A stretch of DNA of 36,258 nucleotides from Candidatus Zixiibacteriota bacterium (GTDB taxonomy: Bacteria > Zixibacteria > MSB-5A5 > GN15 > JAAZOE01). Below are positions 20,576-33,772 of the stretch, piece after piece (the first letter of the stretch is position 1; each line of letters starts with the position of its first letter). The stretch covers positions 1 through 36,258 of the forward strand of contig DAOUTW010000046.1 in assembly GCA_030668485.1 (NCBI GenBank). Direction: 5' to 3'. A program made the position numbers and the translations under genes. Below the pieces are notes generated by a model. That model ran no database searches. It was not told where the DNA came from and saw only the letters and a program-made list of their open reading frames with translations.

Positions 20576-20653
20576 GGGGTTGTAGTTCAGTTTGGTTAGA
20601 ACGCCTGCCTGTCACGCAGGAGGTCGCGAGTTCGAGTCTCGTCAACCCCGCCA
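20576..20653 (+). tRNA. tRNA-Asp (GTC), integration target
   Basis: Acceptor strands GGGGTTG and CAACCCC pair, the anticodon loop CTGTCAC gives GTC, discriminator G73 and CCA are encoded. Its 3' part is duplicated exactly at 33719-33772, so this gene is the attachment site used by the 13-kb element. The gene stays intact after integration. Confidence 0.97.
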
Positions 20654-20655
20654 TT
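20602..20655 (+). repeat. attL: 54-bp direct repeat in tRNA-Asp
   Basis: From the anticodon stem through CCA plus TT, this is identical to 33719-33772. The bases outside differ at both ends (A/T before, A/G after). The integrase gene begins 98 bases downstream, as usual for tRNA-targeting tyrosine recombinases. Confidence 0.93.
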
Positions 20656-20700
20656 ATTCAGGCGCAAGCCGCCATCCCCCAACGACATTCAACGATCCAG

Positions 20701-20743
20701 CCAGTGCTTGAGCGCAGTTTTCAACGCTCGAAAACAGCACTGG
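20701..20743 (+). promoter_or_regulatory. Hairpin covering the integrase ribosome-binding site
   Basis: CCAGTGCT (20701-20708) pairs with AGCACTGG (20736-20743), and GAGCG/CGCTC can pair inside. The 3' arm overlaps the first bases of the GGAGG (20742-20746) that serves GTG 20753, so folding could restrain integrase translation. CAGCACTGG recurs at 33624 near attR, so it may instead be a recombinase arm site. Confidence 0.45.
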
Positions 20744-20752
20744 AGGTCTCCT

Positions 20753-21688
20753 GTGAGCATCACGACGTTCAAGCAATTACTGAACTATGCCGATCAGATT
20801 AATATGGGCAACACTACAACGACCACAATCGAGAGCTTCTATTTCCGCTGTCGTTTGATTGGCTGTACCGCCAAAACGCAGGCCGTTTACGCCGAACGCC
20901 TGAGCTACCTGTTGCGGTATGCGGAGTCAATCGACAGGAAACTGGAAGAGTTGACCAAGCACGACTTACAGCGGTACATCAACACTTTGATCGACACCGT
21001 AAGTCCAGTTACGATCAACGGGCGCATCCAAGTCTACCGAGTCTTTTACGGCCACCTGCTGAAAGAGGGCTTCGTTGAGACCGATCCCATGGTCGGCATC
21101 GACAAGGTGAAACAACCGCACACTTTGAAGCGTGTGATTACTCCGGAAGAGTTGAGCAGGATTTTGGACCAAATCAATAAGCGGACTTTCATCGGCACTA
21201 GGGACCGTGCGATTATCCTGTTGACCTTTGACGCCATGCTAAGACTTTCGGAGTTGCTGTCGATCAAAACGTCGCAACTGGATTTGCGGTCTGGGGTGAT
21301 CCACGTGGTAGGGAAGGGTCGAAAAGAGAGATTTGTGGCCTTTTCACCTACGACCGCACAACTTCTCCATACTTATGTGACACGGTTCCGTGCGAAAGTC
21401 CCAGGAGACTTGCTGTTCTGTACCCGGCAGGGTGGGCCAATCGGCCACCGCTACGCCCAAAGGATTTTCAGCAACCCAGCCCGCAAGATCGGGCTACATC
21501 TACACCCACATCTGGCGAGACACTCCGGAGCGACGGCATTTGTCCGTGCCGGTGGTCCGTTGTCCGTGCTGCAGCGTGCGCTTGGCCATTCGACCTTGCG
21601 GGTGACGGAGCGGTACATCCACGTAGACGACACTGATTTGCACAACGCCTATGAGCAATTCGCACCAGCGGCAGACGTAAGAGTGTGA
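20753..21688 (+). CDS. Tyrosine recombinase (integrase)
   Basis: Catalyses site-specific integration and excision at tRNA-Asp. The 311-residue XerC/D-like protein has an N-terminal SAM-like core-binding domain (about 22-110) and a C-terminal catalytic domain. All catalytic residues are visible: Arg164 (AMLRLSELL), Lys188 (VVGKGRKER), His253 and Arg256 (HPHLARHSGA), His279 (LGHST) and the nucleophile Tyr288 (TERYIHV). GTG 20753 is chosen because GGAGG lies 6 bases upstream; the frame can be extended to TTG 20708, but that runs through the hairpin. It sits next to attL and is the only recombinase in the element. Confidence 0.93.
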   Translation: MSITTFKQLLNYADQINMGNTTTTTIESFYFRCRLIGCTAKTQAVYAERLSYLLRYAESIDRKLEELTKHDLQRYINTLIDTVSPVTINGRIQVYRVFYGHLLKEGFVETDPMVGIDKVKQPHTLKRVITPEELSRILDQINKRTFIGTRDRAIILLTFDAMLRLSELLSIKTSQLDLRSGVIHVVGKGRKERFVAFSPTTAQLLHTYVTRFRAKVPGDLLFCTRQGGPIGHRYAQRIFSNPARKIGLHLHPHLARHSGATAFVRAGGPLSVLQRALGHSTLRVTERYIHVDDTDLHNAYEQFAPAADVRV

Positions 21689-21733
21689 GTGATCGGTTCA
21701 GCCCTGTCGATCAGCGATTCGCACATCGCATCA

Positions 21734-22042
21734 CTATAGTCCAATTGGTGGTCTCCTATCCGGAAACTCAACAGGGATGGTAAACCGCACGCGGCTGACC
21801 GACTCACTCGCGGACTCCGTTTGGCCGTCTACGCCAAGCTTGAGAATACCAGCGATGGCAATACCGGCACCAGCACCCCCCGACACGCCTTCCGAGACTG
21901 TAACAGCTACATCAAACTCGATTGACTGCAACTGTCCCATCTGGCAAACGTTATACTCTTTCGCACTAATTTGCCCTTGTGCGGTCACAACCCCATCAAC
22001 GATCTGCTGGATCGTCTGAGCTACGAACTCTTTCAATTCCAC
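21734..22042 (-). CDS. Small protein with Gly/Ala-rich centre (unknown family)
   Basis: A 102-residue protein: an amphipathic helix (MELKEFVAQTIQQIVDGVV), then strands with IEFDVAVTVSEG, a Gly/Ala/Ile-rich segment (GGAGAGIAIAGILKLGVDG) and a closing VSRVRFTIPVEFP strand. I recall similar small proteins with EFDVAVT...SRIKFSVP patterns across bacteria, some near signalling or defence genes, but no function is settled. The GTG start has AGGAGG eight bases upstream. It is convergent with the integrase and divergent from the methylase. A role in the element's regulation or defence is only a guess. Confidence 0.65.
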   Translation of the reverse strand: MELKEFVAQTIQQIVDGVVTAQGQISAKEYNVCQMGQLQSIEFDVAVTVSEGVSGGAGAGIAIAGILKLGVDGQTESASESVSRVRFTIPVEFPDRRPPIGL

Positions 22043-22213
22043 GGGTAAGCCTCCTCGTTAAACCTTGAACTGCTCCCAACATCGCAAACCCAGCAGGCCG
22101 TGTCAAGTCGTAAATCGTGGGTAGCTATTAGTCACATATTAAAGAGAAGCATTGACAGAGATACCTCGACCTTGTTTTTTAGGGTAAACGAGTCTAAATG
22201 AAAGGTCGCAACC

Positions 22214-23068
22214 GTGCAACTATCGCTTTTACCCCGTACTCGACCAAAAGGGCAACTCCTTAAGTGGGTTGGAAATAAGTACAAGTACGCCCACACCATC
22301 ACTGCCTATTTCCCAGATGACTATCGTCGCTACTATGAGCCTTTCCTCGGCATCGGGACTATACTCGCCACGCTCGCGCCGGAAAAAGCAATTGCCGGTG
22401 ATATTAATACAGAGCTTATTGAATTTTGGAAGTTAGTTCAGACTGATTCCGATTCACTTGAATCGTACTATAGAGACACAATTGAACGATTCAACAAGAA
22501 CCGGCAGGTGGTGTACAATGAAATCAAGGCTAAGTATAATGCGAACCCAAACCCATACGACTTAATGATAATCAGTCGCACCTGTTATGGTGGTGTGATG
22601 CGCTTCACACGCGAGGGCAGCATCAGCACGCCAATCGGCCCACACAAGCCAATCGCTCCGGAGACGTTTGAGGCTCGCCTGTATGAGTGGCAGAAGCGCG
22701 TCCAATATACTAGGTTTGTCAACCAGTCGTTCAGCAAAACAATGAAGTCGGCAGGAGAAGGTGATATCGTCTATTGCGATCCACCGTACATTGACACACA
22801 GGCGATTCTCTATGGCGCACAGGATTTCAGTTTCTCCGAGCTAGTCGAGATGATCGCAGAATGTAAGAGTAACGGGGCCAAGGTCGCACTTTCCATCGAC
22901 GGGACGAAGAAGTCCGGAACGAAGCGCATTCCGGTTGATTGGCCGAAGAGTCTCTTCGAGCGCGAAGTCCTCCTGGATTGTGGCAGTTCGATGTTACGTC
23001 GATTTCAGAACGGTGGTAGTGCGATGGTCGGCGAGGGCGTACACGACAGGCTGCTACTCACGTGGTAG
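22214..23068 (+). CDS. DNA adenine methylase, D12/Dam class
   Basis: A 284-residue N6-adenine methyltransferase that would protect target sites with S-adenosylmethionine. Motifs in alpha-class order are KWVGNK (17-22), EPFLGIGT (42-49, SAM binding), AGDIN and the catalytic DPPY (189-192). The target sequence cannot be read from the protein. It starts at GTG 22214. Its stop is followed directly by the convergent endonuclease-like gene (no gap), so the two probably form a restriction-modification pair. GATC maintenance is possible but less likely for a MTase paired with a nuclease. Confidence 0.92.
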   Translation: MQLSLLPRTRPKGQLLKWVGNKYKYAHTITAYFPDDYRRYYEPFLGIGTILATLAPEKAIAGDINTELIEFWKLVQTDSDSLESYYRDTIERFNKNRQVVYNEIKAKYNANPNPYDLMIISRTCYGGVMRFTREGSISTPIGPHKPIAPETFEARLYEWQKRVQYTRFVNQSFSKTMKSAGEGDIVYCDPPYIDTQAILYGAQDFSFSELVEMIAECKSNGAKVALSIDGTKKSGTKRIPVDWPKSLFEREVLLDCGSSMLRRFQNGGSAMVGEGVHDRLLLTW

Positions 23069-23884
23069 CTATTTCGGCCACTTACTCACGATGTCCGGCC
23101 ATCGATCGACAACCTCGCGTCCGAAGATGACCTCATCCACGAGGCCCATGTGCGTAGCATCGACCAAGCGGCAAAGGTATGATCGACCGCAATCCCACCA
23201 CGTGTAATGGTCATCCACGAGTAGATAGTGCCCAACGCGTCGTTCCGCGAGATTCTTCGCCTCGTTAATCTCGTAGCCATCCAGCAGCGTCTCATACACA
23301 CCATCGGCTACACGACTCCCAAACGACGTCGTGCCGTAATATTCTTTGATCTCCCAGACGACATGTGGGTTATCAGGGCTTGGATAGGCTCCATCGATTT
23401 GCCGCGACATCGTTGCCACGAGATGGCCTTTATCATTTTTTATCGTAGTTAGCTGACGCGGATTATCAGCAAAGCTCGTCCCGTCAAGTGTGGCCTCGGT
23501 AAGTGTGTTGATAATACAAGTAAAATATGCATGGTGGCGCATTGTTCCCTTTTGCTTATTGAGAGGCAGGTGGCATTGGGGCTTGTGCTTAGCCTTTAGC
23601 TTCTCGAAAAGGGCCTTAGCCTGATCGCGATCCATCAGCAGAGACTCGACTTGTTCTTCGAGCATAGCCGCTCGACAGTTGAGATAGTCAGTCACACGTT
23701 TCACTACCTCGTTGGCAGTGCCTAGGGTCTTCGCAACATTCGCAACCTCACCCTGTGTGTAGCGGCGCAAGGTCTTTGGCAGTCCCTTACCCACTCGTTT
23801 GGAGTATCCGAGTTGCTCAGAAGCGTACCGCACGAGTGCCCAGAAAGCGGGCGTCTCGTTGACGAATTCTGGATTTGGTTTCAT
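23069..23884 (-). CDS. Predicted PD-(D/E)xK restriction endonuclease
   Basis: A 271-residue soluble protein, tail-to-tail with the D12 methylase. The first half is helical and basic. The second half holds a likely PD-(D/E)xK site: Asp164 in RQIDGAY, then Glu178-Ile-Lys180 in VVWEIKEYYG, spaced as in type II nucleases. That motif and the methylase neighbour are the basis for the call; I do not recognise the family. ATG 23884 is chosen over the longer frame to 23953. A TATACT -10 element on the minus strand lies at 23892-23897 with TGGACT 17 bases before it, which would give a leaderless message. Confidence 0.72.
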   Translation of the reverse strand: MKPNPEFVNETPAFWALVRYASEQLGYSKRVGKGLPKTLRRYTQGEVANVAKTLGTANEVVKRVTDYLNCRAAMLEEQVESLLMDRDQAKALFEKLKAKHKPQCHLPLNKQKGTMRHHAYFTCIINTLTEATLDGTSFADNPRQLTTIKNDKGHLVATMSRQIDGAYPSPDNPHVVWEIKEYYGTTSFGSRVADGVYETLLDGYEINEAKNLAERRVGHYLLVDDHYTWWDCGRSYLCRLVDATHMGLVDEVIFGREVVDRWPDIVSKWPK

Positions 23885-24178
23885 GTGGCATAGTATAACA
23901 CGCCAAGTCGTCTGAGTCCACCACAAAAATCTAAATTGTGATTGACACGGCACGGTTGCCGCTTAGTGGTGTGCGATTTGCCTTTGGCTGCGTTTGATAG
24001 CAACATTAAGAGCTACGAGCAATTCAGCCCGGCAGCGATAATAAGAATTTGATCCCCTGTTTTGGCAATTCAGGCTAATAGGGATATTTGCATCTTGATT
24101 CACTGACATTTTATCATTACATTTATCACTGACATTTGCTAAATTCGAATGGGGCATAATGTGTGATAGGAGACGACG
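23885..24178. promoter_or_regulatory. Shared upstream region of two divergent endonuclease genes
   Basis: The region contains the minus-strand promoter at 23892-23920, TTGTGATTGACACG (23936-23949, repeated at 26013-26026), and a 12-base direct repeat TCACTGACATTT at 24100-24111 and 24126-24137 before the plus-strand gene. It ends with AGGAG before GTG 24179. No open frame of substance lies here. Confidence 0.5.
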
Positions 24179-24766
24179 GTGAAACGAAAAATTAAGATCA
24201 AGAATGCTGAATTGGTCAATCTGCTGGGTGGTAGTGCTGGCTCTTTCCCAAAATACACAACCCAGATCATTAATCTCGCAAACCAAAATGCGCAGGGCAC
24301 GCGGGCAAAAGTAGTGGGCCAAATGAGTGAGCTTATTCAGGAGTTTCCGGGAAAGACCTTGGACGAATGGATAGCTTGGTATAGTCTGAAGCACCCCGAT
24401 TCCATAGATCGTGCGACAGAGCTTACGTATGCGGCACTACAGAATCTTGCCGAGGCCATTCAACTTGTTGATAAGCCAATGGTGCGGGAGTGGGTGAAAG
24501 ATTTAGTTCACCAAAAGACATTCGCTGGTCTGAAATTCCAAGAGGCGATATTGAAGAGGATAGCCGAGCTATTGGATACCAGCTACAGGCTTTCCACACC
24601 GGAAGAAGAATCAAAAGGCATCGACGGATTCATTGGTGACAAGCCGGTATCGATAAAGGCGGCGACTTACAAATCGAAAACTACCACTGCACAAGAGAAA
24701 TTGCAGGGGGCGATGATCTACTACGATAAGAAGAAGGACGGGCTTTCAGTCGAGTTCGATCTCTAA
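24179..24766 (+). CDS. MjaI-family type II restriction endonuclease
   Basis: A 195-residue nuclease matching what I remember of the MjaI family (RE_MjaI): INLANQNAQGTRAKVVGQMS near 31-50, the WVKDLVHQKTFAGLKFQEAI block, and the active-site region ESKGIDGFIGDKPVSIK (144-160) with Asp149 and Ser158-Ile-Lys160. MjaI cuts CTAG. The same target is probable here but not shown. The gene starts at GTG 24179 (AGGAG 6 bases before) and ends 11 bases from the convergent methylase. N-terminal length is a little short but the core is complete. Confidence 0.85.
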   Translation: MKRKIKIKNAELVNLLGGSAGSFPKYTTQIINLANQNAQGTRAKVVGQMSELIQEFPGKTLDEWIAWYSLKHPDSIDRATELTYAALQNLAEAIQLVDKPMVREWVKDLVHQKTFAGLKFQEAILKRIAELLDTSYRLSTPEEESKGIDGFIGDKPVSIKAATYKSKTTTAQEKLQGAMIYYDKKKDGLSVEFDL

Positions 24767-24777
24767 GATAGTTGATC

Positions 24778-25920
24778 TTAGAAGTCCAGCCGTATTTGCC
24801 CCCCTGTGACTGTGCGCTTTGATTGCTTCACCGCTTCAGACACATTCGACATCGCTTGAATGTTGCATGTAGTTATCTGCTTATAGTTTGCCTCGAAGGT
24901 GTTGGCTGCGGTTCGGCGGATGTCTTCGATGTTGCAAAGCACAATCCCACATTCCTGCCGACTAACACACCCCGCTCCCAGACTCTCGATCATGAACTTA
25001 GGCGGCTTTCCGTCGACAATGCGGCTCTCGATGTGTCTGATGTGCTGATCCAACCGCGAAGCGATGTATTCGTTTGCACTACTCTTCAAAGCGGACACTC
25101 GCTCCTCAATGATCTGTCTGAAACTCGCGTCAATCTCAAAGCCGATGCTGTTTCGTTCCGAGGCGAGGGCCGCACATAAAGTTGTGCCAGTGCCGAGGAA
25201 TGGGTCGAGCACTATATCCCCCTTGACAGAGAACATGTTGACTATCCGATAGGCCAATTCAAACGGAAAGGCGGCACTACGCGCTCGGAGTTTAGTGCGA
25301 TTCAACCCTTGACGCACGCCCCTCAGGTCGAGCCACACATCGGAAAACCACTGATTGCGCTCTTCCCAGAAATATGCGCTCTCGCGTCGGAGCTGCTTTA
25401 GCTCTTTGCTGGCGAACTGCCGCTTGCTACCCTTCCGGAAAATCAGTATGTATTCATGCTCAAGTGTAACGTAGGCCCCCGGTGGCAACATGCCGGAACC
25501 CATAAATTTATTAGGCGCATTGGTGCTCTTGCGCCAAATGATGTTTGGGAGATTCTGAAATCCTAAACTGACTAACTTGCTAATAACCCGTGAATGAGAA
25601 GAATGTAGCTGGAACACCCCATCTAACGTACGCGCAGCATCACCAATGTTGACACAAACGATTCCGCCAGTTTTTACTACCCGTTCAAGTTCCTGCCATA
25701 CTTCATCAAGTTGGGTGTGCATCAGTTCGAAAGCCACAGCCCCCTCATTGGCTTGAAGGGCTGTGTTCACTCTCTCATCAGCCCGACAGAAGTCGGCGTC
25801 CCACATCTCGATCATCGGGTAAGGTGGGGATGTGACTACTAGGTCAACCGATGAATCGGGGACGTTTAATAACTTGGTGGCCGAAGCGTAGACCATTTTG
25901 TGCGTAGTATTCCGAGACAA
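24778..25920 (-). CDS. DNA methyltransferase, probable N4-cytosine type (MjaI partner)
   Basis: A 380-residue beta-class methyltransferase. The catalytic motif TSPPY (30-34) comes before the SAM-binding motif DPFLGTGTT (239-247). TSPPY is usual for N4-cytosine enzymes, and M.MjaI is of that kind. A C-terminal extension of about 110 residues may contribute to target recognition. It is convergent with the MjaI-like nuclease, so the pair likely forms a CTAG-type system. TTG 25920 has GAAGGA at good spacing; ATG 25896 (MVYASATKLL) is an alternative without one. Confidence 0.88.
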   Translation of the reverse strand: MSRNTTHKMVYASATKLLNVPDSSVDLVVTSPPYPMIEMWDADFCRADERVNTALQANEGAVAFELMHTQLDEVWQELERVVKTGGIVCVNIGDAARTLDGVFQLHSSHSRVISKLVSLGFQNLPNIIWRKSTNAPNKFMGSGMLPPGAYVTLEHEYILIFRKGSKRQFASKELKQLRRESAYFWEERNQWFSDVWLDLRGVRQGLNRTKLRARSAAFPFELAYRIVNMFSVKGDIVLDPFLGTGTTLCAALASERNSIGFEIDASFRQIIEERVSALKSSANEYIASRLDQHIRHIESRIVDGKPPKFMIESLGAGCVSRQECGIVLCNIEDIRRTAANTFEANYKQITTCNIQAMSNVSEAVKQSKRTVTGGQIRLDF

Positions 25921-26227
25921 CTTTGCATTCCTTCAGAATCGTCAAATTAACTGTCTGTGTCATATCCATAAAAAAATACACGAGGCCTCCCAGCGCAAGA
26001 CTTCTTTTTAATTTGTGATTGACACGAAAGTGTGTGAAATTGGGAGACTTCAAGATGTGTAAGCAATTACAGATCGACCTCACGAAAGGCCACGGGAGGT
26101 GTTCGAGGTGTTCTGGATGCCCCAGAGGACGTCTAGACGGCCTTGAGGCCAACCGTCGCGCTTCCTTGGGCATCGACGGTATACGTCCGTAGGCCCAGAC
26201 GGCCTATCTAGACGGCCTCCGGATGCC
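25921..26227. repeat. MTase upstream region with AGACGGCCT repeats
   Basis: No gene seen. TTGTGATTGACACG is at 26013-26026. TCTAGACGGCCT occurs at 26132-26143 and 26207-26218, and CAGACGGCCT at 26196-26205. Each 12-base copy contains CTAG, the presumed target of the neighbouring restriction system. Confidence 0.45.
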
Positions 26228-26374
26228 TTAAGGCGTGGTCAACAGGCCGTCCAACTCTTCGGTGATCTTGGTCAACTCGTCGTGTTGGCTGCTGGTGCCA
26301 AATTTGGGGCTAGCGAGCAACGCACGGAGGCGTTTCACCACCTGCTCGATCTTTTTCCACTCGTCGATGGTCAT
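26228..26374 (-). CDS. 48-residue helical protein coupled to the HTH gene
   Basis: ATG 26374 overlaps the stop of the upstream HTH gene by 4 bases (ATGA), a strong sign of a real, translationally coupled gene. The 48-residue product begins MTIDEWKKIEQVVKRLRALL and has a second amphipathic helix (HDELTKITEELDGLL), so it is probably a helical hairpin. It may bind the HTH protein or DNA. No family recognised. Confidence 0.7.
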   Translation of the reverse strand: MTIDEWKKIEQVVKRLRALLASPKFGTSSQHDELTKITEELDGLLTTP

Positions 26375-26712
26375 GACTTATCCTTACTGGCTTTCTTGCT
26401 GGACTTCGCTTTCGGTTTGGCCTTGCTGGTCTTTTTAGCGGCGGGTTTGGCCTTGGCTCGTTTCACTTTGGCCTTAGCCACGGCAGCAGCCACGACTTTC
26501 TGATTATCTCGCTTTAATCGAGTCACGGCGTCGGCGCAGCCTGCGGCCATCTTTCCATAGTCCTGCCACTTGGTTTCGATCGACAGGCCCAGCCTGTGAA
26601 CGAGTTTGTAAAACGCGGGAGTTGACAGGCCAAGGGCGATGGCGGCTTTTCGACGGCTGCCCTCTTTTTTGATTAGCTTCTCTAGGGCTTGTTTGGTTTC
26701 GGGAATCTTCAT
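26371..26712 (-). CDS. HTH DNA-binding protein with histone-H1-like tail
   Basis: A 113-residue protein. Residues 8-45 form a Fis-like helix-turn-helix (LIKKEGSRRKAAIALGLS, then FYKLVHRLGLSI). From about residue 75 the chain is almost only Lys, Ala, Ser and Pro (AKAKPAAKKTSKAKPKAKSS), as in histone H1-like bacterial proteins. The head would read DNA and the tail would bind it without sequence preference, giving a nucleoid-type or silencing regulator. AAAGGAG precedes ATG 26712, 31 bases after the acidic protein's stop. The tail is low complexity, so homology there proves little. Confidence 0.7.
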   Translation of the reverse strand: MKIPETKQALEKLIKKEGSRRKAAIALGLSTPAFYKLVHRLGLSIETKWQDYGKMAAGCADAVTRLKRDNQKVVAAAVAKAKVKRAKAKPAAKKTSKAKPKAKSSKKASKDKS

Positions 26713-26743
26713 GGCTTACTCCTTTGATTGGTTCGGTTAACGG

Positions 26744-27031
26744 TTAGGCGTCGTCTTCGGGGTATTCTTCACTGAGCCACTGGTCCAAGGGCTTGGCTTC
26801 GATTTCGGCCAGCTCGTCGTCGGTCAGCTCGTCCTCTCTGGCCATCAGCCTGTCGATCTCGCTCTTGTCAAAGCCAAGGTCTCGGAGGGCCACGCGGGCA
26901 CCTCTGGCGGTGGACTGGTGAAGAGCGGCCTTGGCCTGTAGGAGGTCAAGGATCGCGCTCTCGTCGGCTTCTTGCCCTGCCCAACGGAGGGCGTCGGCGG
27001 CGGCTTTGGCCAGCTTGCTTAGATTCGACAT
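26744..27031 (-). CDS. Acidic helical protein of unknown function
   Basis: A 95-residue protein: an Ala-rich helix (LAKAAADALRWAGQEADESA), a middle helix containing ARVALRDLGFDKSEIDRLM, and a strongly acidic end (DELTDDELAEIEAKPLD, then EEYPEDDA). The charge is opposite to that of the next gene's Lys-rich tail, so the two products might interact; that is inference. AGGAG lies 8 bases before ATG 27031. First gene of a three-gene set running to 26228. No family recognised. Confidence 0.65.
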   Translation of the reverse strand: MSNLSKLAKAAADALRWAGQEADESAILDLLQAKAALHQSTARGARVALRDLGFDKSEIDRLMAREDELTDDELAEIEAKPLDQWLSEEYPEDDA

Positions 27032-27520
27032 CGGGTCTCTCCTCTCGGTTTGGTCTCTCTCTCATCTACTAGGGGAATTGCACACGACGTGCCAAACGAT
27101 ATTGTAGCCTTCTGCATATATGAACATGGAGTCATAGTACCACGAAGCCCCGTGGGACGGGTTTTCGAAGGGGTATGTGTCCGGGAAGACACATTGTACC
27201 GGGGCGTACATTGTGCAAGCCCTATACCAGAAATATTGCAAGCTGCACGAATTCGTGCAGGGTGCAATGCGAAGCTTAGGGTGAGAGACCTATAGTGCGA
27301 GTCCTATATAGGACTTATCCAATATAGTCACCGGCAGGGGAACCGACCACCCTGCCGGTGATTGTGGAGCGGCCTGAGAAGAGAGGCGGCTCCGGTGGGC
27401 AGCAACGCTCGCAACTCACTGCGTTGCTGCGGAATTTTAGACTGTGCGACGCTGGTGTTATTGTCGGACTACCAACATCGCAACAGCCCACGGACACAAG
27501 TGTGTGGCCGTTCCCAATCT
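27032..27520. promoter_or_regulatory. Palindrome-rich control region
   Basis: No credible gene. It holds CTGCACGAATTCGTGCAG (27243-27260), AGTCCTATATAGGACT (27300-27315) and a 12-bp stem TCACCGGCAGGG/CCCTGCCGGTGA (27328-27339 and 27350-27361). It also has a GTGTC.GACAC stem and two ACATTGT copies near 27190-27215. The first two are probable operators for the minus-strand operon. The third could end the gene at 27521 or act in an RNA leader. Confidence 0.55.
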
Positions 27521-28390
27521 TTATGCGCCACTGGTGTCCGCATGGTCGCCTTCTCTACCACCTCTTTTCGGGCCAGGGCCACTCTGATTGTCGGCGGGTT
27601 CGCCGCCGTGCGTGTCGCTGTCCTTGACGAGCTGCCAGTTGCCATCATCCCCCTGTTGGATCGTGATCTTTGCGCCTTTTTCTGGCACGGCATCAGGATG
27701 GACTTGTACAGTGGCGTCGTTATCGAACACCACGTAGACGCCAGCATGGGAGCCATTCACACTGACGACGGTGACTTCAACGGGGGGAGCCTTAACAACA
27801 GCTTGCTGCGGCTGTACTATAGCGTCAATGGATAGATCCCCCTGCTTCGCATCGGCAATAAAACAACGGTAGATGTCCACACCATTGCAACTTGACTTCA
27901 CCACACCACGCATGCCGACCACAGGATCGGGCAGTAAGCGAGTTCCACCATCCGGCTGGGCCTGTTCAACGCGGTTAACCTCGACTTCACCGGTTTGATT
28001 TGGCGCATACGGGTGCGTTATGTCAAAGCGAATGGTTACACGGCGACTTACGGAATTGGTGGCAGTGATCTGAGCGACGAGATCCGGCTCCGCTTTGAGA
28101 CGTGCGGCAGTACGCTCCTCTCTGTCGAGTTTGGCTCTCGTCTGATCGTACTCCATCTGTTCGACTCCACCCATCTTGCTGCGCTTGACCTTCTCCATGC
28201 GGATGTGGTACTGCTCATCAGTTTCATCGGGTTGCCGGTCCAACGTGCGAGCTTGTTCTCTGTCGGCTCTGGCTTGCTGGTCGGCCTCACTAATCTCCTC
28301 CGAAGTCTCTCTCTTACCGGATTGGCCGCGCACTTGGCCCATCGCATCTTTTTCAATGCGGTTTGGATCATTCGGGTATCGGTCTTTCAT
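27521..28390 (-). CDS. Element protein of unknown function (coiled coil plus beta domain)
   Basis: A 289-residue protein. The first 95 residues are very polar and helical (EEISEADQQARADREQARTL, then RMEKVKRSKMGGVEQMEYDQ), a likely coiled coil. The centre (about 105-245) is strand-rich with VTIRFDITHPY, GVDIYRCFIADAKQG and VEVTVVSVNGSHAGVYVVFD, resembling small beta-barrel repeats. The tail is Gly/Asp-rich and disordered. GAAGGAG precedes the ATG, directly after a CGCACGAAATCGTGCG palindrome. I do not recognise the family. Location in the replication/accessory operon is the only clue. Confidence 0.65.
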   Translation of the reverse strand: MKDRYPNDPNRIEKDAMGQVRGQSGKRETSEEISEADQQARADREQARTLDRQPDETDEQYHIRMEKVKRSKMGGVEQMEYDQTRAKLDREERTAARLKAEPDLVAQITATNSVSRRVTIRFDITHPYAPNQTGEVEVNRVEQAQPDGGTRLLPDPVVGMRGVVKSSCNGVDIYRCFIADAKQGDLSIDAIVQPQQAVVKAPPVEVTVVSVNGSHAGVYVVFDNDATVQVHPDAVPEKGAKITIQQGDDGNWQLVKDSDTHGGEPADNQSGPGPKRGGREGDHADTSGA

Positions 28391-28404
28391 AGAAGTAACT
28401 CCTT

Positions 28405-28420
28405 CGCACGAAATCGTGCG
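28405..28420. promoter_or_regulatory. Palindrome upstream of the 28390 gene
   Basis: CGCACGAAATCGTGCG differs by one base in its inner 14 from the palindrome at 27245-27258. It lies right against the ribosome-binding site of the 28390 gene, so a bound protein or RNA fold could restrain it. Confidence 0.5.
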
Positions 28421-28481
28421 GTTTTATGTTAAAGTCTCGTTTCGTTTTCTTTGACGACGCTCTTCTCGCCGCCTATAGCGG

Positions 28482-28790
28482 TTACTCATCACTGCTGCTT
28501 CCTTTTGGGTCAACCGGGATGCCAATCAGCAGCTTGGCTCTGTTCAGCATCTTTTGAACCGGAAGGATTTTCATCCATTCGTTGTAAGTTCGGGCCTGTC
28601 GCACCCACGGCACGACTTTGACCAGCAGGAGGGTGCCCCGCTTGAAGATTCGCCACAGCTTGTTGCGTTTAACCTCGTCGGCCTCGTTGCTTATGGCCAC
28701 CGCCATATTGGCCCGTCGGGTGACCATATCGATCACGTCTTTATCGGTCTTCAACCGTGGCTTCCAGATTTGCCAACTGCGCCGACTCAT
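28482..28790 (-). CDS. Basic element protein of unknown function
   Basis: A 102-residue, Lys/Arg/Trp-rich protein (MSRRSWQIWKPRLKTDKDV, then WRIFKRGTLLLVKVVPWVRQ) with one amphipathic or weakly hydrophobic stretch near 55-70. ATG 28790 overlaps the upstream stop codon by 4 bases (ATGA), which sets the start and shows coupling. It may bind nucleic acid or a membrane surface. No family recognised. Confidence 0.65.
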   Translation of the reverse strand: MSRRSWQIWKPRLKTDKDVIDMVTRRANMAVAISNEADEVKRNKLWRIFKRGTLLLVKVVPWVRQARTYNEWMKILPVQKMLNRAKLLIGIPVDPKGSSSDE

Positions 28791-29521
28791 GATCGCCACC
28801 CGCCTTTCGGTGGGATGTCGTGGCGATCCGGCGGTTCGGGATCACCGTCCGGCGTCGGGCTTGGGGCGTCCGGCATATTCAGCAGGGGAAAGTTATCCTC
28901 ATCATCCGGTCGTTTGGGGATGAGTGTGGCCTCGTCGGAAGTCTTACCCTCGTTTTGCACCTTGGCGTCAAGTACGCTTTGTGCGGCGTCGATCAGCTGT
29001 TTCAATTCGAGTTGGCAGAGGACCGACAGATTGAGCTTATGGAGACCACCTATCTCACTGCGGAAGGTCATTAACATCTCTTCTACCAAAGCAGCGTCGA
29101 GTTTAACGTTTTTCGGATTGGATAACATGGTGCGTCCGTCGGCTGCTCCACTCGCACGGCGCAAATCGTTGAATGCTTCCAACGCTTTAAGCTTGATGCC
29201 GTCGCTTGCACCGCTGTCCTTGATGATGCTGGCCACGAAATCGAGCTGCCCATCGGCGGTCTCTAGATCGAAGTCGAGCGGTTTCTTGCTTCCTGTCGGC
29301 TTTCCTTTGTTTGTGGCTGCGCCCTTCGTCAATCGTGTCATCTTCTTGCGAAAGGCACCAAGCGATCCCGGATATTTGCCGACTTCCGGACCGCGCTCGT
29401 AGTTGTCGTCACTCGATAGCATGCGGTGGATGTCATTCACTGACTTACCCAACGTGACCTGTTGAAGCGCGAATCGCTCTTGCTCCGATGTGAGATTATT
29501 CCTGTCATCTTTTTTGATCAT
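28787..29521 (-). CDS. Element protein of unknown function, possible DNA-packaging or regulatory role
   Basis: A 244-residue protein. The N-terminus (LTSEQERFALQQVTLGKSVN and following) resembles the small-terminase or HTH openings that begin with SEQE.F.....G.S, but that is a weak likeness. A Lys-rich linker and a helical middle (about 75-185) follow, and the end is Pro/Asp-rich and disordered (DAPSPTPDGDPEPPDR). It overlaps the end of the replication gene by 17 bases, so the two are coupled. GAGGT precedes the start; GTG 29524 is an alternative. Confidence 0.6.
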   Translation of the reverse strand: MIKKDDRNNLTSEQERFALQQVTLGKSVNDIHRMLSSDDNYERGPEVGKYPGSLGAFRKKMTRLTKGAATNKGKPTGSKKPLDFDLETADGQLDFVASIIKDSGASDGIKLKALEAFNDLRRASGAADGRTMLSNPKNVKLDAALVEEMLMTFRSEIGGLHKLNLSVLCQLELKQLIDAAQSVLDAKVQNEGKTSDEATLIPKRPDDEDNFPLLNMPDAPSPTPDGDPEPPDRHDIPPKGGWRS

Positions 29522-31598
29522 CACTACCTCTTTCTTTCTTTATGAGATCGGTTGCATCGGCAGCCTGTGGCAGCGTCCATGGATCACCTGTGCGGTCGAT
29601 ATTAATCTGGCTAGCAGCACGGTAAAACGTGCCCTCCGAAAACCAGTCTTCTTTTGCCGCTTTACTGCGGACTTCGGCCTTTGGCACGCTTCCGTTGCCC
29701 GTTTTCATTAACTCGCGCAGCCATGCTTTCGCACGCTCGATTTTCGTCTCCTCGCTTTTGACACCCATAGAGGCAGGTCCAACTTCGATGAATCGCTGCA
29801 AGCCGAGGTCGAAAGTCACCCACAGGTCCGGTTGTGTCCATCGTCCCTCGTAGCACAGCTTGCGCTCCTTGTCGGCTTTCCTACCTTGCAGGTGCACCAT
29901 CATGTCAACAGCAGCTTCAAATCCCGACTGGCCTCGTACGCCTCGATTCTCGCCTTTGCCCTCATGCCCCAGCAAGGCCACGGCGATGCCCAGCGGATCG
30001 GCAATCTCCGACTTTAGCAACTGCAGCGCGGCGTGTGCCTCTTCGTTGTCCGATGACTGCAGCCGCTTTTTGCCCTTGTATCCGAGGCAGTTCGTTAGGT
30101 AGGTTGCGAGACTGTCAATGTAGATGCCGTCGAGATGGTGTATGAAGACGGCGTTTTCAATCGCATCCTTCAGGTCGTTAAACGACGTGGGGTTGTAAGG
30201 CATAATGTGAAAGCGGTCCATCGTGTGGCCAGCAGTCATGCCCATTGTCAAGAATCGCTTCTTGATGTCACCGTCTGACTCTTCCATCGAGATCAGTCCC
30301 ACCTTGAAACCACAATTAATCGCATTGATGCCGTCCGTTGCTGCAAGAGTGCTTTTCCCGTGCTTCGCTTTGCAGTAGGGGAGAGTCACACGACGGCGGA
30401 AGAGCAACCACGAGAGCTGGTCCTCCTTTTCGTCGATCGATTCATCCAGCAGCAAGTCTGAGGCGGTCACCCACAACTTGCGCTTGGTCGTGTCGTCCTC
30501 AGTGTGCTGTATCTGGTCAAGGAGCCGCAGCGCGGCGTAAGCCTTGCCGACATTAGTAGCGAAGCCTTCCGTAATCTTCCGTATGGCGAGATCGGCCAAT
30601 TCGCTACGGGGGGTAACCGTTGTCTTCCCACGCCTTGCTGCGTGTGACGGTTTCGCCTTTGCCGCGCCGAGTGCCGCTTTCAATGACGGCCACTTCTCCG
30701 GACCAGCAGGGTGGTGCTTAACCTCATAGACGTGTGCTACCAGCTCTGTGATCGTCTTATCGTTGAGATCACTGCCGGTCTCCTTAAACGGGTTGGCCAC
30801 GTAGAGCCGGTTGGCATCACACATCTTACTGAATGTTTCTTCTTTGATGTAACCGCACTGCCGGAACTTGGCGCACAGATTCAGCAGCTCAAATTCCCGT
30901 CTACCATCCTTAATCGGGTGGTCTTTGTAGTAGGCCAGCAGGGTAGTGAGTTCCGTACGGTCCAGATTCGTGTAGTCTTTCTGCTCTGGAACCACTTCAT
31001 AACCGGTGGGTACACTCCTCTTGCCGGTGGGTGCCGCACTCTTGGGTACGATCAAGGCTTCCGGGGGAAACGTGAACGGCCTACCGGTCAACACCGCCAA
31101 GCGGAATCGTGGGTAGCCACTCGTAGGTTTGCCACTGTCGAACTCGCAGCATGGAAACAATGGCTGCGATACTTTGAAAACCTGCTCGTCCGCGTCGGGG
31201 TACTCTGCTTTGAGCCAGTCGCAGATCGGCTCAAATGCGGTCTTATCCGTTATCGGCTGCGCGAGTGCTAGGAGCACCCGAATCTTCGGTTGTTCGTCGC
31301 TGTCGCTACTGCTGGTGTAAACGACGCCAGCGTAGTCCTTGAACTGTGCGACTCGCTCCTCGAACGTCTTAGGCGATTCATCGAAGTCAAACGGCACCAC
31401 CAACAGAGCGGTCGTGTTAGCAGCCTTGCGAGGGCCAGAGTACCGCCATGCGCTGTGAATCCGGCTGGTAAAGAACTCACACAGCGCAACTTCATCCTGC
31501 AGGGCAAGCTCGACCGGTTCTGGCTCAAACGCCGTAACCTTCCGACATATTGTCTTGTCGCTGTAGTTGCCAGCCGCAGCCTGTAGTGCGATCTTCAT
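29505..31598 (-). CDS. Replication protein: primase-like domain fused to RepA-type ATPase
   Basis: A 697-residue, two-part replication protein. The N-terminal third looks like an archaeo-eukaryotic-type primase: DFD at 71-73 in VVPFDFDES and a KIRVLLALAQPIT strand, though the usual His is not evident. A helical linker follows. The C-terminal part is a RecA/RepA-like ATPase: Walker A CKAKHGKST (409-417), Walker B GIYIDS (491-496), and LLGHEGKGENRGVRGQSGF (about 542-560). The first Gly of Walker A is Cys, while Gly414-Lys415-Ser/Thr are intact. It would prime and unwind the element's DNA. Its ATG overlaps the upstream stop (TAATG). Confidence 0.75.
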   Translation of the reverse strand: MKIALQAAAGNYSDKTICRKVTAFEPEPVELALQDEVALCEFFTSRIHSAWRYSGPRKAANTTALLVVPFDFDESPKTFEERVAQFKDYAGVVYTSSSDSDEQPKIRVLLALAQPITDKTAFEPICDWLKAEYPDADEQVFKVSQPLFPCCEFDSGKPTSGYPRFRLAVLTGRPFTFPPEALIVPKSAAPTGKRSVPTGYEVVPEQKDYTNLDRTELTTLLAYYKDHPIKDGRREFELLNLCAKFRQCGYIKEETFSKMCDANRLYVANPFKETGSDLNDKTITELVAHVYEVKHHPAGPEKWPSLKAALGAAKAKPSHAARRGKTTVTPRSELADLAIRKITEGFATNVGKAYAALRLLDQIQHTEDDTTKRKLWVTASDLLLDESIDEKEDQLSWLLFRRRVTLPYCKAKHGKSTLAATDGINAINCGFKVGLISMEESDGDIKKRFLTMGMTAGHTMDRFHIMPYNPTSFNDLKDAIENAVFIHHLDGIYIDSLATYLTNCLGYKGKKRLQSSDNEEAHAALQLLKSEIADPLGIAVALLGHEGKGENRGVRGQSGFEAAVDMMVHLQGRKADKERKLCYEGRWTQPDLWVTFDLGLQRFIEVGPASMGVKSEETKIERAKAWLRELMKTGNGSVPKAEVRSKAAKEDWFSEGTFYRAASQINIDRTGDPWTLPQAADATDLIKKERGSDDQKR

Positions 31599-31849
31599 TA
31601 CAAGCCCCTGTAGACTTGGGGTCTGTCTTTGAGGATTTCATCGCACGGCTTTATCGTAGATAGATACTCACAGTACAACGCTAGCACCGTGTAGTTCCAG
31701 CTACAGGTGCGATGCATCATAGTGTCGTACTCTTCCGCCTCCTGTGCTGTCAGCCCACCGCCGATTTTGGCTTCACGAGCAGCACGCCACTTTTGTAGTC
31801 CTTCATGAGCTTCCAGTATCAGCCCACTTCTTGATTTCTTCTTTAGCAT
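31598..31849 (-). CDS. 83-residue protein upstream of the replication gene
   Basis: A basic-start, helical protein (MLKKKSRSGLILEAHEGLQK, then GLTAQEAEEYDTMMHRTCSW) ending in an aromatic helix (YTVLALYCEYLSTIKPCDE). The stop shares a base with the replication gene's ATG, so they are translated together. It could be a replication accessory protein, but no family is recognised. Confidence 0.65.
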   Translation of the reverse strand: MLKKKSRSGLILEAHEGLQKWRAAREAKIGGGLTAQEAEEYDTMMHRTCSWNYTVLALYCEYLSTIKPCDEILKDRPQVYRGL

Positions 31850-31900
31850 AACCGAACCTCTTTTTGTTTTGAGTGTGATTTTGTAGTGATCAGCTCAGCT

Positions 31901-32068
31901 TCACACGTCGTCTGGGTATCCTTTGTTGAGGATCTTCTTGAGCGTGTTAAGCGAGATGCATAGATCGACCGCCAGCGCACGTTGGCTGATGGTGGTGTCA
32001 CGGTAGCGTTTGCGGATTTCCGCACGCTGTTTGGTGTTAAATTTCGGAAAAGCGGTAGGGCTTACCAT
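31901..32068 (-). CDS. 55-residue helix-turn-helix protein
   Basis: A gene too short for a 60-residue cutoff. AAGGAGG lies 6 bases before ATG 32068. The product (starting MVSPTAFPKFNTKQRAEIRK) carries a homeodomain-like HTH: KQRAEIRKRYRDTTISQRAL, then VDLCISLNTLKKILNKGY. The pattern QRAEIR..Y....S...LA...IS..T...IL is that of small HTH regulators and excisionases. It is the first gene of the replication operon, right beside the repeat region, so it may bind those repeats and control replication or excision. Confidence 0.8.
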   Translation of the reverse strand: MVSPTAFPKFNTKQRAEIRKRYRDTTISQRALAVDLCISLNTLKKILNKGYPDDV

Positions 32069-32159
32069 AGCAAGCCTCCTTAAGTTAGGGTTGTAAGTCT
32101 CGTTTTAATGGACCGGATGTAAAAAGCCGTAGCCCGTATGAGCCACGGCGTGTTCCAAG

Positions 32160-32475
32160 GTTTAGACGTAAGCAAAGCAGCGAGTGGACCACAGCGAGTT
32201 GATGCTCCCTAGGTCTGGGCATGGCCGCTCTACATGTTTAGACGTAAACAACGCCGCGAGTGGGAAACAGCGAGCTGATGCTCCCTAGGTCTGGGCATAG
32301 CCGTTCATAGGTTTAGCCGTAAGCAACGCCGCAAGTGGGACACAACGAGCTGGTGCTGGCCGTCTACAGTTTAGCCGTAAGCAAAGCAGCAAGTGGACCA
32401 CAGCAAGCTGGTGCCGGGCGTACTCCTACATGTTTAGTCACAAGAGACGCAGCGAGTGGGTCACAGCAAGCCAAA
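32160..32475. repeat. Five degenerate tandem repeats (iteron-like)
   Basis: Units begin at 32160, 32236, 32311, 32369 and 32432 with GTTTAG.CGTAA (the last diverges). Each contains a GC(A/C)(A/G)C(A/G)AGTGG core, three to five bases, then CA(G/A)C(G/A)AG(C/T)TG(A/G)TGC. Unit lengths are 76, 75, 58 and 63 bases plus a shorter last copy. Units 1 and 2 also share CTCCCTAGGTCTGGGCAT. The GTGG...CAC centre is kept in four of five units. Confidence 0.85.
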
Positions 32476-32476
32476 A

Positions 32477-32523
32477 CTGTTCAAAGGCTGAACAGGCGTG
32501 TGACCTGTTCAAGGCTTGAACAG
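32477..32523. repeat. Twin 19-bp palindromes
   Basis: CTGTTCAAAGGCTGAACAG (32477-32495) and CTGTTCAAGGCTTGAACAG (32505-32523) are near-identical palindromes 28 bases apart centre to centre, directly after the tandem repeats. Operator or origin function is inferred. Confidence 0.75.
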
Positions 32524-32876
32524 TGGACGTGCTTGTGGACGTGGGCATGCTTAGCCATGGGTGCGGTTCTCCTCCGCTCCTACCCCCCGTGTGTGTGGCG
32601 GAGGAGACGCCTCTCCTTCTCCTCCTACACCCACAAGGGGGGATGGAGAAACGGAGAAGCGGAGAACGCCCTCTCCTGCTGATGGGCATCTAGGGGGGAC
32701 TTACAGGACGTGCTCGTGGACGTTGACCGTGGATACCGAAACCCACGGTAAGGTAGTCTGAGGAAGTCGATATACGTGGTCAAATACGTAGTCAAGGAAC
32801 TCTGAGAAAGTGCGGCCAGACTGCCCTGCGAGGAAGTGCGACCATCCTGCCGATCTTGGGGTTAATCGGGACCTAC

Positions 32877-33055
32877 ATCGCACGGTAATGTGCGAAGTTC
32901 CCTTCTTGCGGTTAAAGTCCACTTCTTAGAGACGGGACCCATATCGCACAGTAGCGTGTGAAACTTTCTCCGTTAGGGGAGAGTCCACTTCCAAACAGCA
33001 AATCGCACGGCACTCAGCGATTTGCTAAAGTTCCTTTCCACCCTGCCGATAGCCT
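32877..33055 (+). repeat. Three hairpin repeats before the 33084 gene
   Basis: Units start ATCGCAC at 32877, 32943 and 33002. Unit 1 has a perfect TCGCAC/GTGCGA stem; unit 2 has the same stem with one G-T pair; unit 3 pairs AAATCGC with GCGATTT. Units 1 and 2 also share AGTCCACTTC. A fourth copy is at 33413 across the stop of the 33084 gene. Confidence 0.65.
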
Positions 33056-33083
33056 GAGTAAGTCCAATGAAAGGAGCACAACC

Positions 33084-33431
33084 ATGGCAGACAAGAATGA
33101 TCCACGCCCACAAGAAGACCCAAATCGCAATGCGGACTTGTCGGAGCTGGAAATAATGTTTAAAATGGGTTCTACCGACATAACTGCAAATTTGTGGGAT
33201 TGGGGACGTATTCTTCTGGTTGAGTTGGAAGATATCGTCAAAAAGGTGAACAAAGCCATTCAAGACAAAGATATTAACGAATATCTGTGCCAACTTGAAC
33301 ACATATACAACATGGACCGTTTTGTTGAAGGCCCACTTATTGTGCTCGGTAGGTTATCGACTGATGATCCTAATTATATACACCCCCTCATGGGTGACGA
33401 GGATGATGATTCATCGCACACCACTAAGTGA
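33084..33431 (+). CDS. 115-residue acidic protein of unknown function
   Basis: The only plus-strand gene in the right half of the element. ATG 33084 follows AAAGGAG. The first 20 residues are polar (MADKNDPRPQEDPNRNADLS). The core is helical (WDWGRILLVELEDIVKKVNK, then YLCQLEHIYNMDRFVEGPLI), and the tail is very acidic (GDEDDDSSH). Longer in-frame starts read through hairpin repeats and are unlikely. It lies between copies of that repeat, suggesting it is regulated through them. Function unknown. Confidence 0.7.
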   Translation: MADKNDPRPQEDPNRNADLSELEIMFKMGSTDITANLWDWGRILLVELEDIVKKVNKAIQDKDINEYLCQLEHIYNMDRFVEGPLIVLGRLSTDDPNYIHPLMGDEDDDSSHTTK

Positions 33432-33718
33432 TTTGCGGTGTGGCTCCCCCCCTGTCGGAGCATCCTAAAATATACCACTTCATATGGGACTTCAATAGCA
33501 AAGTCCCCCATCTTCATATAACTTCTTGCCGTTGATTTGGCACGTCGCTTGTTTACGCCCCAGCAGTAGGGAAAGTCTTGACAGGCGGCCTCTTATGTGC
33601 TTTATTGGGGTATAGACAATGCCCAGCACTGGTCGGAGTTCGCCTGTTGTCATTGGTGCAACACCTACGATGTGCGGCTTTCTCCTCTGGAGAGTGGGTG
33701 TCGATTGAGCCACGAGTT
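33432..33718. other. Element right end, non-coding
   Basis: No gene seen. GGGACTT (33486-33492) pairs with AAGTCCC (33501-33507), a small stem. TTGACA at 33578-33583 could be a -35 element, but the -10 is poor. CAGCACTGG at 33624-33632 matches the arm at 20735-20743 and could be an integrase arm site. Confidence 0.4.
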
Positions 33719-33772
33719 CGCCTGCCTGTCACGCAGGAGGTCGCGAGTTCGAGTCTCGTCAACCCCGCCATT
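33719..33772 (+). repeat. attR: tRNA-Asp 3' fragment, 54-bp direct repeat
   Basis: Identical to 20602-20655: anticodon stem, T-arm, 3' acceptor strand, CCA and TT. The 5' half of the tRNA is absent, so it is not a working gene. It marks the right end of the integrated element. Confidence 0.93.

Follow-up and report, generated by a model that had tools for sequence, protein, structure and literature searches.

Five imperfect direct repeats ahead of the replication genes in a tRNA-Asp-integrated element, putative double binding sites for one of its own proteins

What is the function of a group of long degenerate repeats that lies beside putative replication genes in a mobile element of Candidatus Zixiibacteriota? 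In the window (the whole stretch of DNA analysed, 36,258 nt), positions 32160–32477 of the + strand carry an array of five imperfect units sharing a 46-bp core. A sequence-only reading had offered three explanations, namely paired binding sites, a structured RNA array and an incompatibility or iteron-like locus. The units are the following:

32160..32205, + strand, core of unit 1, with the GTTTAG box and CAGCGAG half-sites at 32178 and 32192
32236..32281, + strand, core of unit 2
32311..32356, + strand, core of unit 3
32369..32414, + strand, core of unit 4
32432..32477, + strand, core of unit 5, the most diverged, its final bases mismatching

The units start at 32160, 32236, 32311, 32369 and 32432, i.e. 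with spacings of 76, 75, 58 and 63 bp, exactly as first described. Tandem Repeats Finder gives the array scores of 288 and 166. In a fixed register, pairs of units are identical at 31–39 of 46 positions and the best pair of 46-mers in the region reaches 41/46, whereas 100 dinucleotide-shuffled versions of this 1-kb region reach 28/46 at most. The array is unique within the window, and all five matches found in the 4.5-Mb host genome belong to it.

All five units have GTTTAG, C, AA, GC.GC, AGTGG, ACA, C and AG in common, GC.GC and AGTGG being parts of the GC.GC(A/G)AGTGG core noticed at the outset. Two other motifs, thought to be kept in each unit, are so only in part. GTTTAG.CGTAA is exact in units 1–4 but reads GTTTAGTCACAA in unit 5, and only units 2 and 4 keep the whole of CAGC.AGCTG, unit 1 ending with GTTG, unit 3 beginning with CAAC and unit 5 carrying CAGCAAGCCA in its place. 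The spacers between units 2–5 diverge completely, while the GTTTAG, GC.GC.AGTGG and ACA blocks stay. The units are also mosaic: three columns join units 1 and 2 versus 3 and 4 while four columns join units 1 and 4 versus 2 and 3, and these conflicting groupings suggest exchange between units.

In each unit, a pair of CAGCRAG-like half-sites in direct orientation, 14 bp apart, comes after a GTTTAGnCGTAA box. With a word of 8, this sub-repeat gives 31/40 matches, a value attained by none of 150 sets of column-shuffled units; with a word of 10, p is 0.013 against such units (in round terms, p about 0.01). Several word lengths were tried. By contrast, inverted symmetry does not exceed that of units shuffled by column (p 0.6–0.99). 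The GTGG...CAC centre that had been regarded as conserved is thus not a conserved dyad, and unit 2 reads GTGGGAAAC at this place.

The array belongs to a mobile element inserted in a tRNA-Asp gene, whose main components are as follows:

20602..33772, mobile element of ~13.2 kb, its ends being the intact tRNA-Asp and a 54-bp duplicate
20708–21688, tyrosine integrase, next to the left end of the element
22214–25920, two adjacent restriction-modification modules
29505..31598, − strand, Rep (697 aa), with an N-terminal primase-like and a C-terminal helicase-like region
31598..31849, − strand, 83-aa protein of the replication operon, with no assigned function
31901..32068, − strand, HTH protein of 55 aa, whose gene opens the replication operon and has AAGGAGG as ribosome-binding site

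The intact tRNA-Asp gene is located at 20576–20653 and its 3' part (54 bp) is duplicated at 33719–33772. The integrase is followed by the two restriction-modification modules and then by the leftward replication operon. The first module combines a D12 methylase and a DUF7687/DUF7690 protein, which is likely its partner endonuclease, and the second an MjaI-type endonuclease and an N6_N4 methylase. Among the proteins scanned, none was recognisable as a relaxase, a capsid protein or a terminase, and the element could be of phage-satellite or of integrative-plasmid type. A 245-aa protein (28787–29524) has no family match; by eye, its N-terminus (LTSEQERFALQQVTLGKSVNDIHRML) recalls small terminase subunits.

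Rep has no match in Pfam and NCBIfam. It matches PHROG primases and replicative helicases (E 2e-6 to 2e-5), its residues 54–142 resembling phage primases and its residues 412–581 replicative helicases at E 2e-6 to 0.003, and it is a candidate initiator. The 55-aa HTH protein, which has a weak match to HTH_7 (E 0.013) and to PHROG repressors (E 0.004–0.008), is a candidate binder of the array. Single-sequence structure prediction was uninformative for both (pLDDT of 39 for Rep; one long helix with a pTM of 0.35 for the HTH protein). The array is located directly upstream of this operon, in a noncoding region of ~1 kb that extends from the HTH gene to a rightward 115-aa ORF (33084–33431).

Taken as a whole, these data suggest that the array is probably a cis-acting DNA element made of double protein-binding sites for Rep or the HTH protein, involved in the control of replication or of the operon. 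The direct half-sites and the position upstream of a replication operon fit protein-binding sites. The repeats exceed chance and are confined to this element; they are flanked by the HTH/Rep operon on one side and by a small divergent gene on the other, in a region where other dyads and repeats occur, and they show no RNA-fold signal and no coding periodicity (see below). Furthermore, direct repeats are established as Rep-binding sites in PLE and SGI1. The following model can be drawn: the tRNA-Asp-integrated element would carry five double binding sites for its own protein, either Rep or the 55-residue HTH protein, and the occupancy of the units would control replication start, copy number or operon expression, so that the array would work like long iterons or an incompatibility site. 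Among the three initial explanations, paired sites and an incompatibility or iteron-like locus fit best, on account of the direct half-sites and the adjacent replication operon; the structured RNA is not supported.

That these binding sites would also be initiator sites is a further step that we infer, and several features count against it. Although several direct repeats lie beside a rep operon, as in classical iterons, the 46-bp cores are not even, helically phased units of 17–22 bp: as had been pointed out, they are too long and, at 58–76 bp from each other, too unevenly spaced, and their spacing lacks helical phasing (resultant 0.41 at 10.5 bp). The signs of an origin core are also weak, and the surrounding noncoding region contains other signals:

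32080..32110, AT-rich stretch, 30% GC per 30 bp
32126..32149, − strand, hairpin resembling an intrinsic terminator (stem of 10 pairs, 4-nt loop, TTTTT following)
32477..32523, two operator-like dyads adjoining unit 5, CTGTTCA-N5-TGAACAG and CTGTTCAA-N3-TTGAACAG
32525/32537 and 32706/32718, two GGACGT pairs, 12 bp apart, flanking a 98-nt hairpin

The AT-rich stretch (one 30-mer at 32080) is the sole one of the noncoding kilobase and is a possible operon promoter or melting site. The single DnaA box, with one mismatch, lies at 32434 inside unit 5. The GGACGT pairs, which are at least as iteron-like as the array, are a rival candidate for the initiator's iterons. An 18-bp direct repeat (GGACGTGCTYGTGGACGT) is found at 32525 and 32706, on either side of the long imperfect hairpin (32564–32661; 44-nt arms, 75% complementary, z −4.4). 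The + strand folds at z −5.1 over 32470–33090. Three related hairpins (ATCGCAC...GTGCGA and variants, at 32877, 32943 and 33002) were observed within 32867–33040, the leader of the ORF 33084–33431, each followed by a similar pyrimidine-rich stretch. The CTGTTCA dyads, the GGACGT pairs with their hairpin, the leader hairpins and the terminator all compete with the array for the same roles.

A structured RNA array is not supported. The fold energy of the array equals that of shuffled sequences on both strands (z 0.04 and 0.84), no compensatory pair was found across the five units and an Rfam search of the array gave no family match. One explanation involving RNA, which is unlikely, is that a leader or antisense transcript starts inside the array or to its right on the minus strand and ends at 32149–32126, the array acting in RNA to exert a P4-immunity-like read-through control on the operon. 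As in such a P4-like control, a terminator lies between the leader and the replication operon: the minus-strand hairpin that separates the HTH gene from the array is strong (z −3.2, 0/200 shuffles) and no recognisable gene precedes it. This terminator is the best argument for a transcript crossing the array and stopped before the operon, but the array itself gives no RNA signal, whether in folding on either strand, in compensatory change or in family membership, and no promoter match was found for a minus-strand transcript.

A coding frame under selection, which the sequence-only reading had named as an observation that would speak against it, was tested for and not found. The variable columns are distributed 7/8/8 by codon phase, the best coding frame across the array has a p of 0.08 after taking the maximum, unit spacing and lengths shift any reading frame, and the ORFs across the region have no family match. 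One frame resembling LDVSKAASGPQRA, in which several columns differ at the third codon position, was attractive by eye but failed the codon-phase test.

It is also rather improbable that the array is an operator cluster and nothing else, its units binding the HTH protein or another regulator while the origin is at another site such as 32525–32723, with its GGACGT pairs and hairpin. The HTH gene adjoins the array, its product is weakly similar to phage repressors and GGACGT forms a strong cluster (four copies in 200 bp versus 0.08 expected), all of which favour such a role. However, five 46-bp units over 320 bp are long for simple repression, and a small HTH protein usually has a short dyad as its operator, while these units have no dyad. 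Finally, a passive degenerate tandem duplication devoid of function is very improbable: the units are mosaic, as drifting and recombining repeats would be, but GTTTAG, AGTGG and ACA are kept in all five units beside fully diverged spacers between units 2–5.

Binding of Rep or of the HTH protein to the units, the preferred explanation, can be compared with known systems. In the satellite phage P4, long direct repeats are replication sites and transcription is terminated ahead of the replication operon; its crr repeats, two 120-bp copies, differ from the five-unit array. No sequence relationship to P4 was found in the phage collection. The P4 initiator is a fused primase-helicase (PMC7145576), as the primase-helicase-like Rep would be. 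In the Vibrio cholerae PLE, three iterons of ~30 bp with sub-repeats are the Rep-binding sites of the origin (PMC8263062, PMC7145576). Like the array, the PLE iterons are direct repeats with sub-repeats and variable spacing, and they too occupy noncoding DNA of an integrated element, a satellite in this case. However, the three PLE repeats are semi-palindromic, whereas the five 46-bp units lack inverted symmetry, and the PLE initiator belongs to RepA_N, whereas Rep is primase-helicase-like. SGI1, a mobilisable island, is likewise integrated and, as is proposed for the array, its own Rep (RepA) binds the imperfect direct repeats of its plasmid-like origin, oriV, four in number and of 16 bp (PMC7826253); its 16-bp repeats, AT-rich region and six DnaA boxes are not evident at the array. 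Classical plasmid iterons are also tandem direct repeats beside rep but are evenly spaced and of 20–22 bp, as in Psychrobacter plasmids (PMC10457243), in contrast to 46-bp cores at 58–76 bp that are not helically phased.

It is doubtful, although conceivable, that the array represents a new class of long bipartite iteron (a box and two direct half-sites, ~46 bp) used by a new family of primase-helicase initiators encoded on mobile elements of this poorly sampled bacterial phylum, possibly with termination control of the operon. If Rep binds the units, the element would provide a small, testable replicon for a bacterial group in which searches returned no relative of the initiator, and its initiator sites would exemplify a length roughly double the usual one. 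If Rep does not bind them, the array would be just another mobile-element operator cluster.

Searches for relatives covered the proteins, the DNA and the units. With Rep, tblastn against phages and plasmids returned only fragments (E 0.03–0.9), peptide patterns, which detect close relatives only, found none in IMG/VR and GTDB contigs, and none was found in 132 genomes of the phylum. The DNA region of the array and the other genes of the element, including those of the operon, have no relatives in the collections searched, and the unit patterns have none in viral and genome contigs. A looser unit pattern gave four single matches, judged to be due to chance, and a unit profile run across the phylum gave single weak matches (E 0.009–0.08), taken likewise. 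No other gene of this element, no replication module and no such array were found in the stretches examined around relatives of the integrase. These relatives (34–49% identity) adjoin other tRNA genes. In another genome of the phylum, a long CRISPR array (repeat GTGTTCCCCACGGGTGTGGGGATGAACCG) is located near one of them (L042:10846-15393).
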